From positions 1-53,238 of the IMG/VR virus record IMGVR_UViG_3300037189_009383: a stretch of 53,238 nucleotides of DNA; one strand, 5' to 3'. The translations under genes were made by a program, and so were the position numbers. The notes under the pieces were generated by a model. It was not told the origin of the DNA, did not search any database, and worked only from the letters and a program-made list of their open reading frames with translations. The DNA is from a virus. Of this stretch, positions 51,796-53,238 are shown piece after piece (the stretch's first letter is position 1; each line of letters begins with the position of its first letter).

Positions 51796-52104
51796 ATGAC
51801 TGAAGCTACGAAAACCAACTACACCCCCGAGCAAACCGCAGCTCTCGTTGCCGGCTACCAAGCGGGCGCAACTGTAGAAGCACTGGCCACCCAGCTGGGC
51901 AAATCTACTCGAAGCATCGTGGCAAAATTGAGCCGTGAGGGCGTGTACCAAGCCAAGAGCAAAACCACTGTGGCTCGTGTTAAGAAAGCCGAGCTGGTGG
52001 ATGCAATTGCCAACCGCATTGGCGTTGCTCCTGAAACCTTTGACAGCTTGGAAAAAGCCAATCACGAAGTCTTGGAAGTGTTGTTGCAACACCTGCGTGG
52101 TTGA
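51796..52104 (+). CDS. Small HTH DNA-binding protein, paralog 3
   Basis: A 102-residue paralog: NYTPEQTAALVAGYQAGATV, then QLGKSTRSIVAKLSREGVYQ and a linker without the TKTGE segment. The recognition part RSIVAKLSREGVY differs by two residues from paralogs 1 and 2. The C-terminal helices (ELVDAIANRIGVAPETFDSL) are closer to paralog 4. ATG 51796 is taken since the ribosome site AAAGGA is 6 bases before it. The third and second bases of codons are more GC-rich than in paralog 2, hinting at a different history. Confidence 0.8.
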   Translation: MTEATKTNYTPEQTAALVAGYQAGATVEALATQLGKSTRSIVAKLSREGVYQAKSKTTVARVKKAELVDAIANRIGVAPETFDSLEKANHEVLEVLLQHLRG

Positions 52105-52112
52105 TCGAACTT

Positions 52113-52150
52113 AGGGTCAGAAAATTTTCACTTGATTACTGACCCTTTTT
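52113..52150 (+). terminator. Terminator after HTH paralog 3, overlapping the next promoter
   Basis: Stem AGGGTCAG (52113-52120) with CTGACCCT (52139-52146) followed by TTTT. The loop carries the TTGATT -35 of the next promoter, so stop and restart share the same bases. Confidence 0.88.
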
Positions 52151-52160
52151 CATGTATAAT
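52132..52160 (+). promoter_or_regulatory. Promoter of the small structured RNA
   Basis: TTGATT, 17-base spacer, TATAAT. The same TTGATT-N17-TATAAT layout is used by the ribozyme RNA promoter at 52304, and both continue with TATT. Confidence 0.88.
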
Positions 52161-52166
52161 TATTCT

Positions 52167-52300
52167 ATAAACAGTCGGGAAGGGCTTAATGAATGACAGC
52201 GCAAGCTGCCGCCCGCACGCACAAGAACACTTACTCAACCCTTGACAAAAACCAGAAGTCCATTTCGTAAGGTAGTCTAGTTGCAACGACTGTTTTTATT
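52167..52300 (+). ncRNA. Small structured RNA with closing stem and possible 25-codon ORF
   Basis: A unit of about 130 nt from the promoter at 52132 to a T-run at 52293. Its ends pair: ACAGTCG (52171-52177) with CGACTGT (52287-52293), the latter followed by TTTTATTT. Inside are a CAGC-GCAA-GCTG hairpin, GGGC/GCCC and CTTAC/GTAAG pairings. ATG 52193 opens a 25-codon ORF (MTAQAAARTHKNTYSTLDKN and NQKSIS end) to 52270 with GGAAGGG upstream, so it may also encode a peptide. Whether it acts as RNA, message or both cannot be told. Confidence 0.65.
52193..52270 (+). CDS. Possible 25-residue peptide inside the small structured RNA
   Basis: The ORF starts MTAQAAARTHKNTYSTLDKN and ends QKSIS. It has a ribosome-site-like AAGGG 8 bases before the ATG. 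A competing ATG four bases earlier opens an 18-codon frame. The peptide is basic and hydrophilic. The start region lies inside a predicted stem, so translation could be controlled by RNA folding. Low certainty. Confidence 0.4.
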   Translation: MTAQAAARTHKNTYSTLDKNQKSIS

Positions 52301-52303
52301 TAC

Positions 52304-52332
52304 TTGATTATTGTCCACTTTTAGTGTATAAT
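52304..52332 (+). promoter_or_regulatory. Promoter of the hammerhead-containing RNA
   Basis: TTGATT, 17-base spacer, TATAAT. Expected start at about 52339. Confidence 0.88.
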
Positions 52333-52415
52333 TATTATATAAATTGGTGATATGAGTCCCGCCTAAGGGATAGCATCTTAATGACCGAGGAAGTCTCTAG
52401 CGGTCGCCTCCCTAT

Positions 52416-52508
52416 TCCACTGATGAGCCCATGCAAGTTGGGCGAAACTTCCAGGAGCGCGGTGCTAGTGTTCGATTAATATCCACTAGCAACACCTGGA
52501 GGTCTGGA
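52416..52508 (+). ncRNA. Hammerhead ribozyme, stem I open (type I topology)
   Basis: All core elements are there. CUGAUGA is at 52420-52426; stem II pairs GCCCA (52427-52431) with UGGGC (52439-52443) around UGCAAGU; GAAA is at 52444-52447; stem III pairs CUUCCAGG (52448-52455) with CCUGGAGG (52495-52502) and carries a further CUAGUG/CACUAG hairpin; the cleavage triplet GUC ends at 52504. Stem I pairs UCCA (52416-52419) with UGGA (52505-52508), and CGCC (52405) may pair with GGCG (52521) further out. The conserved G10.1-C11.1 pair is kept. Cleavage is expected between 52504 and 52505. Confidence 0.92.
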
Positions 52509-52775
52509 CCACGATGCAACGGCGGTTGTATCTATATTAGTTCAAGGCACCGTGTCACGCCTATACCCCACGAACATGACCCTAAGTTGCGGAGGGTGCA
52601 AAAAATATATCCAACCAGAGACAACTGCATTAAACCGCTAGCAAATGCGACAACCTATTAGTCTCCCCTACTCGATAGCAGACTCCAGATTAACTACCTG
52701 GCTAAGGCTTGTGACGGTTTAGGGTCAGGTTTGGTAGTTCTATAAATCCTGTTAGAGCAAAAAACTAGCGCAGTT

Positions 52776-52817
52776 CAAAGCCCCTCCACCTATGTGTGCG
52801 CAGGGGCTTTGTTTTGT
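52776..52817 (+). terminator. Terminator of the hammerhead-containing RNA
   Basis: Ten-bp stem CAAAGCCCCT (52776-52785) with AGGGGCTTTG (52802-52811), followed by TTTTGT. Confidence 0.93.
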
Positions 52818-52857
52818 CTGTGCGAATCACCATGAAAAATTTGGACGTGCCTGCGCC

Positions 52858-52887
52858 ATTTTACCAGTGCTGGACCTAGTTTGTCAA
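52858..52887 (-). promoter_or_regulatory. Leftward promoter of the repeated family, copy 9
   Basis: On the minus strand: TTGACA, 18-base spacer, TAAAAT, followed by GGCGCA. It faces the ribozyme RNA, so its transcript could be antisense to it unless the hairpin at 52776-52811 stops it. The rest of 52818-52935 shows no gene. Confidence 0.8.
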
Positions 52888-52935
52888 GTGGATTTTCTAG
52901 ATTCTGACCCTAAACTGCAGCAATTGTTCGCACGC

Positions 52936-52974
52936 GCAAAAAAGCCCCCAAAGTGTCAAACTAAGGGGGCTTAA
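52936..52974 (-). terminator. Terminator after HTH paralog 4
   Basis: Stem AAGCCCCC (52942-52949) with GGGGGCTT (52965-52972), followed on the minus strand by TTTTTTG. It lies 27 bases after the stop of the minus-strand gene. Confidence 0.92.
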
Positions 52975-53000
52975 GTCTATTTAAGCGAAATTATGTCAAA

Positions 53001-53238
53001 TTATTCCGATTTAGGGTCAGATTCGGTCAATTTAAGTTCAATTAACTTAAGTACCTGCTTGTTTACCTTCTCCAAGCTTTCCAATACTTCCGAATTTACG
53101 TCCAACAGCTCTGCAATGCGTTCAATATGCTCGGATTTTTTCACCGGCAGCTCGCCACGCTTGTTTACATAAGTTTTTTTCTCATAAACTCCCAGTGAGC
53201 TCAATTTTGCTATAACTGACCTTTCAGGTACATCAATT
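53001..53238 (-). CDS. Small HTH DNA-binding protein, paralog 4 (cut by window edge)
   Basis: The visible 79 codons read IDVPERSVIAKLSSLGVYEK at the start and continue KTYVNKRGELPVKKSEHIER to a C-terminal LKLTESDPKSE. The recognition segment RSVIAKLSSLGVY aligns with RSVVAKLSREKVY of the other three, so it is a fourth family member; its start is outside the window. It is the only paralog on the minus strand. Its final codons contain the TTAGGGTCAG sequence that recurs nearby. A GTG at 53204 is not the real start, as the homology continues upstream. Confidence 0.8.
   Translation of the reverse strand, partial: IDVPERSVIAKLSSLGVYEKKTYVNKRGELPVKKSEHIERIAELLDVNSEVLESLEKVNKQVLKLIELKLTESDPKSE

Follow-up and report, generated by a model that had tools for sequence, protein, structure and literature searches.

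A type I hammerhead in the RNA between two HTH genes

Does the RNA encoded between two HTH genes of a siphovirus carry a genuine self-cleaving ribozyme, and what would its cut yield? The window, by which we mean the whole stretch of DNA analyzed (IMG/VR record IMGVR_UViG_3300037189_009383; 53,238 nt), comes from a phage known from its sequence alone. It encodes a siphovirus set of proteins: terminase, portal, capsid-protease fusion, tape measure, and J-like fiber. Searches of named phages gave no match, either to the window at the DNA level or to the upstream HTH gene at the protein level. The terminase is 50% identical to those of Vibrio phages, and the J-like tail protein is 45% identical to that of Curvibacter phage P26059A, which by this protein comes closest among named phages; when P26059A was searched, neither the hammerhead nor its upstream neighbor, module B (Table 1), was found. 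Small HTH paralogs number four in this one phage (46420-46743, 50733-51059, 51796-52104, and 53001-53237 on the minus strand), and two of them flank the RNA.

The original prediction placed a complete hammerhead in this intergenic RNA between HTH genes, and comparison with relatives backs it. Upon re-reading, the predicted stems I to III, CUGAUGA, GAAA, and GUC were identical base for base; no support emerged for a "possible outer extension" of stem I. Three helices surround the core, with stems II and III closed and stem I open. The core strands conform to CUGANGA and GAAA, and the cleavage triplet is of the NUH form (GUC in the window). We assign the ribozyme to type I because its stem I is open and its stem III ends in a 39-nt loop that contains a further hairpin; relatives differ in both the length and the sequence of this loop. 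Loop II is conserved in the relatives as UGNAANU; the stem I side of the putative tertiary contact differs in the window. In many relatives GAYGAAA lies directly 3' of the cut and may carry a tertiary contact. The window has this motif altered to ACCACGAUG, so its copy could be a slower cleaver.

Table 1. Features of the hammerhead, its host RNA, and the flanking genes (window coordinates)
Feature	Position	Strand	Evidence
HTH-type DNA-binding protein gene, 102 aa, upstream neighbor	51796-52104	+	PHROG 323/1725 matches
Promoter-like site 1, TTGATT-17-TATAAT, precedes RNA1	52132-52160	+	10/12 matches; similar sites in relatives
RNA1, second candidate structured RNA (ACAGTCGGGAAGGGCTTAATGAAT...CAACGACTGTTTTTATT)	52171-52295	+	Ends pair, T run after
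Promoter-like site 2, TTGATT-17-TATAAT, precedes hammerhead RNA	52304-52332	+	10/12 matches; TATAAT-type sites in relatives
RNA2, whole predicted non-coding RNA, ~477 nt	52339-52815	+	Ends inferred from promoter-like site and terminator-like hairpin
Module B, structured, 5' of hammerhead	52346-52408	+	R2 58.8 bits, E 4e-11 (window in training)
Type I hammerhead ribozyme	52416-52508	+	Blind covariance model R3, covariation, core invariants
Stem I, UCCA/UGGA	52416-52419/52505-52508	+	Sequence and pair-by-pair check
Catalytic core strand CUGAUGA	52420-52426	+	CUGAYGA in 49/49 distinct sequences tabulated
Stem II, GCCCA/UGGGC	52427-52431/52439-52443	+	Sequence and pair-by-pair check
Loop II, UGCAAGU	52432-52438	+	
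Catalytic core strand GAAA	52444-52447	+	Invariant among aligned relatives' hammerheads
A15.1-U16.1 pair, extends stem III	52447-52503	+	
Stem III, CUUCCAGG/CCUGGAGG	52448-52455/52495-52502	+	Pair-by-pair check
Stem III loop with own hairpin (UGCUAGUG/CACUAGCA)	52456-52494	+	Predicted fold
U16.1, C17 (52504), predicted cut 52504/52505	52503-52505	+	Position-17 counts
H-type pseudoknot in 3' piece, CCC/GGG and GUUG/CAAC	52578-52617	+	16 distinct sequences
Terminator-like hairpin CAAAGCCCCU/AGGGGCUUUG, 10 bp, then TTTTG	52776-52815	+	By eye and predicted fold
Convergent HTH gene, runs off window end	53001-53237	-	42% identity to upstream HTH gene

A family-specific covariance model detects the hammerhead

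Can covariance models recognize this hammerhead? In the Infernal check with Rfam models that had been proposed for the locus, the window returned 0 matches at the gathering threshold, no model of the hammerhead clan (CL00010) reaching its gathering score. Read literally against Rfam, the refuting condition of the original prediction (no covariance hit above threshold) would reject the hammerhead; comparison with relatives confirms it, and a blind covariance model of the family matched strongly. Of the two matches in a permissive Rfam scan, only RAGATH-1-hammerhead (RF03152; 52416-52508, 17.1 bits against a gathering score of 56.3) has the correct layout, and its alignment starts only at model position 27 of 77. 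The failure at gathering reflects the threshold of narrow models, confronted here with a long stem III loop, and is not a property of the ribozyme class.

The blind model, R3, was built to avoid circularity from 30 relatives with the window, L002, and L003 left out (loci are given by L numbers); models R1 and R2 were trained with the window included. The sole R3 match in the 53-kb window is the hammerhead at 52416-52508, with 67.7 bits and an E value of 5.6e-16.

The hammerhead recurs at related viral loci

We gathered 80 relative viral loci via the HTH protein encoded just upstream, relatives of which mark the locus in other phages, and located their hammerheads by a descriptor scan followed by R1. 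Besides the window, 63 of the 80 loci have a hammerhead 3' of this HTH gene; these and later counts are of sequences and not of independent events, many loci being metagenomic and some perhaps near copies of one phage. The least certain of the 63 are L009, L075, L076, and L080 (22 to 24 bits), and L009, which has 500 nt past the HTH gene, gives a weak match, truncated where its contig ends. Four loci with no hammerhead (L014, L018, L024, and L028) have only 85 to 263 nt of sequence past that gene. L067 and L073 share contigs with other listed loci (L018 and L027).

An independent route, in which viral contigs were searched with the DNA pattern of module B, gave 27 stretches, and 27/27 had a hammerhead match on the same strand, mostly a short way downstream. 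Two were cut by the contig end and one, L263, was partial; this variant has a CUGAAGA core strand and a long stem II, and the covariance model matches only part of it.

Other arrangements were also seen. At L057:5644-5780 and in its relatives L058-L066, a short version of the hammerhead has a terminator hairpin directly after it; cutting there would detach the terminator. Locus L099:1333-6902 (IMGVR_UViG_3300041956_000313) has 8 type I hammerheads in 5.6 kb, between consecutive plus-strand ORFs, and L129:5198-11951 has 8 in 6.8 kb; L082, L086, and L123 have 2 to 3 each. Some phages seem to have a hammerhead before many genes. Legionella genomes (L204, L206-L208, L210, L214, and others) hold numerous hammerheads that share this stem II type, and the sequence around them recurs.

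Covariation and catalytic-base constraint

Is the fold conserved, and are the bases needed for catalysis kept? Supplied with 38 hammerheads and no structure, RNAalifold recovered stems I and II and the base of stem III. In these 38 hammerheads 89.3% of cells were paired, compared to 77.7% in shuffles, and 13 of 18 pairs showed changes on both sides (7.5 in shuffles; 0/500 as high). Double-changed cells numbered 83 versus 28 in shuffles and covariation was 0.329 versus 0.136, values that again 0/500 shuffles reached. When the 3' partners were slid, pairing dropped to 24 to 47%. Compensatory changes are present in all three stems, and stem I alone takes four forms (CCU/AGG, CCA/UGG, UAU/AUA, and CUU/AAG). 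The R3 match, the unguided RNAalifold fold, and the pair counts confirm that the ribozyme is not a chance resemblance.

The catalytic bases are constrained as well. Among 49 distinct hammerheads tabulated, CUGANGA varies at position 7 alone, and position 17 holds C in 42 sequences, A in 7, and G in none, giving cleavage triplets GUC (42), GUA (7), and GUG (0). Since position 17 is never G, as the NUH rule has it, and only position 7 is free, the constraint fits cleavage and not mere folding. Single-sequence fold energies are unremarkable (z of -1.4 for a 481-nt RNA, -0.9 for the hammerhead, and -0.2 for RNA1, no better than shuffles), and the case therefore rests on comparison, not energy.

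The hammerhead lies within a modular, structured RNA

What RNA carries the ribozyme? The original prediction gave it its own transcription unit. A promoter-like site upstream, TATAAT-type sites in relatives, and a terminator-like hairpin downstream all point to such a unit, which stays a predicted one. Promoter-like sites in the region number 5 versus 2.4 expected, which is weak evidence by itself. The hairpin is absent from a simple terminator scan, as its 16-nt loop exceeds the 8 that the scan allows.

The structured setting is conserved along with the ribozyme. Module B has 73 double-changed cells versus 21 in shuffles (0/500 as high). In 16 distinct sequences, the pseudoknot has 92.7% of cells paired versus 24 to 53% when slid, with 8 double-changed cells versus 2.6 in shuffles (0/500). 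RNA1 also recurs in relatives, with its closing arms ACAGTCG/CGACTGT kept. The order that recurs is module A (GGGUGACAGCGG...GCCACAGCCC; missing from the window), variable inserts, module B, an optional tRNA-Glu(UUC), and the hammerhead, followed by a variable stretch with CUAUAUCCC-like motifs, at least one GACCCUAA pseudoknot, and a terminator; in relatives the junction-like modules are repeated and pseudoknots are present. A TTTAGGGTC/GACCCTAAA sequence is repeated across 52111-53018 of the window, near gene ends and in the RNA pseudoknots.

The RNA is ∼0.48 kb long in the window and roughly 0.8 to 1.4 kb in relatives. In one relative group it measures 840 to 960 nt, and in others the ORF-poor stretch past the HTH gene spans 1.1 to 1.7 kb. 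Judged by these sequences, the window RNA putatively belongs, as a compact version, to a family of structured phage RNAs of much greater length. No Rfam family matched the host RNA at gathering or permissive thresholds. At one locus (L062:679-2000), modules A and B, a tRNA-Glu (recognized by eye), and the 3' region are present and the hammerhead is absent; the RNA is thus kept without its ribozyme, which is not indispensable to it.

The cut would divide the transcript during its synthesis

We consider it probable that a genuine type I hammerhead is built into a large, modular non-coding phage RNA and splits the transcript into two pieces. The RNA would be transcribed from its own promoter between the two HTH genes, within the predicted limits of Table 1. 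The hammerhead would fold and cut between 52504 and 52505 as soon as its 3' stem I arm has been transcribed. The 5' piece (∼166 nt) would hold module B and the hammerhead and end in a 2',3'-cyclic phosphate, and the 3' piece (∼311 nt) would start with a 5'-OH and hold the pseudoknot domain and terminator. In relatives, the cut would detach one or more 5' junction modules, often together with a tRNA-Glu, from several hundred nt of 3' RNA. We infer that it is these two pieces that function.

For a nascent transcript reaching 52520, the minimum-energy structure comprises the module B hairpins and the complete hammerhead. In longer transcripts the probability of stem I is ∼0.06, and the hammerhead fold lies 0.9 to 1.4 kcal/mol above the minimum, loop-loop contacts being uncounted. 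As the hammerhead is optimal in nascent RNA and stem I is outcompeted later, cutting during transcription is favored.

Could the hammerhead instead be a three-way junction of the large RNA, cutting slowly or re-ligating so that the halves stay together? Its location midway in a structured RNA, the helices predicted in the long transcript that can bridge the cut, and a short stem I of marginal pairing energy would fit such a scaffold. However, a mere junction would need neither the catalytic bases nor an NUH-type position 17, and both are conserved. The bridging helix predicted in the window would also form at the expense of module B, whose pairing is supported by covariation, and the L057 group has only the terminator past the cut. 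We regard a scaffold as unlikely.

A switchable ribozyme is very unlikely. Here the downstream GACCCUAA element would pair with the hammerhead strand UUAGGGUCAG and mask the cleavage site, and RNAalifold does favor the GACCCUAA helix over the hammerhead's own stem III in nine relatives, in which the possible masking sequence downstream of the hammerhead is CUGACCCUAA. This alternative pairing is confined to one group of relatives, however; the window strand, CUGGAGGUCUGG, pairs poorly with GACCCUAA, the GACCCUAA elements have covarying pseudoknots of their own, and a nascent hammerhead would cut first.

Might the hammerhead free a phage tRNA-Glu from the transcript, as proposed for theta ribozymes, which adjoin phage tRNAs (PMC10879173)? 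ARAGORN found an embedded tRNA-Glu(UUC) in ∼16 loci, often just 5' of the hammerhead (in a first set, L029, L031-L036, L042, L048, L050, L055, and L056; in a later set, L248, L254, L258, and L263), of which some may be copies of one another. All embedded tRNAs are Glu, and in ∼10 loci the tRNA ends 0 to 20 nt before the hammerhead core. The type I cut, however, falls ∼85 nt downstream of the tRNA end and not at it. The tRNA search found none in the window or in most relatives, the tRNA of L042 is on the far side of module B, and those of L034, L254, and L258 are separated by a 100-nt gap. With a cut so far past the tRNA end and most members tRNA-free, forming that end is not an obvious job for the ribozyme, and we give this explanation very little probability.

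The permissive Rfam match to Hammerhead_3 (52388-52453, 31.9 bits against a gathering score of 48.5) implies a type III hammerhead cutting upstream at 52395/52396, which is hardly credible: that layout nearly lacks stem I and takes the upstream AGGAAGUC as stem III partner, although AGGAAGUC forms the loop that caps the module B hairpin (CCGAA..CUCUAG in relatives), and the covariation among relatives supports the type I layout only, so we rejected it. A chance resemblance or decayed ribozyme, suggested by the score below Rfam gathering, is no more credible given the R3 match, the conserved position, the covariation, and the intact core.

Comparison with known ribozymes and large phage RNAs

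How does this RNA compare with known systems? With the type I hammerheads of bacteria and phages (Rfam clan CL00010; Perreault et al. 2011, PMC3088659) it shares the core, three stems, open stem I, NUH site, and phage host, and many other phage and Legionella loci share the stem II/loop type of the window. In the literature, earlier phage hammerheads were placed in intergenic regions and upstream of genes. The other type I hammerheads seen in this analysis are mostly alone or just before genes, whereas that of the window is inside a large structured RNA. The ribozyme class is known; what is new is its setting and the RNA that hosts it.

Theta (HDV-like) ribozymes, which lie beside phage tRNAs and cut at the tRNA 3' end (PMC10879173), are the nearest functional parallel as self-cleaving ribozymes adjoining a phage tRNA. 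They are of another class, and the hammerhead here would cut ∼85 nt away from the tRNA and is usually tRNA-free. We rejected a theta identity on the basis of the hammerhead fold, the lack of a tRNA in the window, and the distance of the cut in relatives. A retrozyme or viroid-like circular RNA was also rejected; it needs paired or repeated hammerheads bounding a unit, and each of the 14 phage records searched in full has a single family-type hammerhead.

GOLLD and ROOL (RF02032 and RF03087; PMC12286853) are likewise large, ornate phage RNAs. GOLLD sometimes bears tRNAs in a linker, and the cryo-EM paper on the two RNAs mentions no hammerhead (PMC12286853). In the 14 phage records, the GOLLD model, including its conserved 3' domain, scored no higher than 5.5 bits (cut-off, 150), and with a score so far under the cut-off we rejected GOLLD membership. 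ROOL had no match in these records, control genomes likewise being unmatched, and none in the Rfam scans. Our most likely guess is that the RNA would act structurally or as a regulator, working in the manner of GOLLD and ROOL without being a member of either.

A hammerhead inside a large phage RNA was not found in the literature searched (open-licence papers), and that literature gave no earlier description of an ornate RNA that has a self-cleaving ribozyme built in. On balance, we lean toward a new class of ornate phage RNA (0.5 to 1.4 kb) that carries its own hammerhead and would mature itself into two parts. A well conserved set of phage hammerheads escapes Rfam's hammerhead models. The embedded tRNA-Glu of some relatives ties the RNA to translation or tRNA biology, and the hammerhead-free L062 offers a natural test of the purpose of the ribozyme. 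A conserved ribozyme at the exact predicted processing point provides a direct experimental handle on giant phage RNAs: a single point mutation (G12A or A14G) should abolish the cut with the fold little altered.
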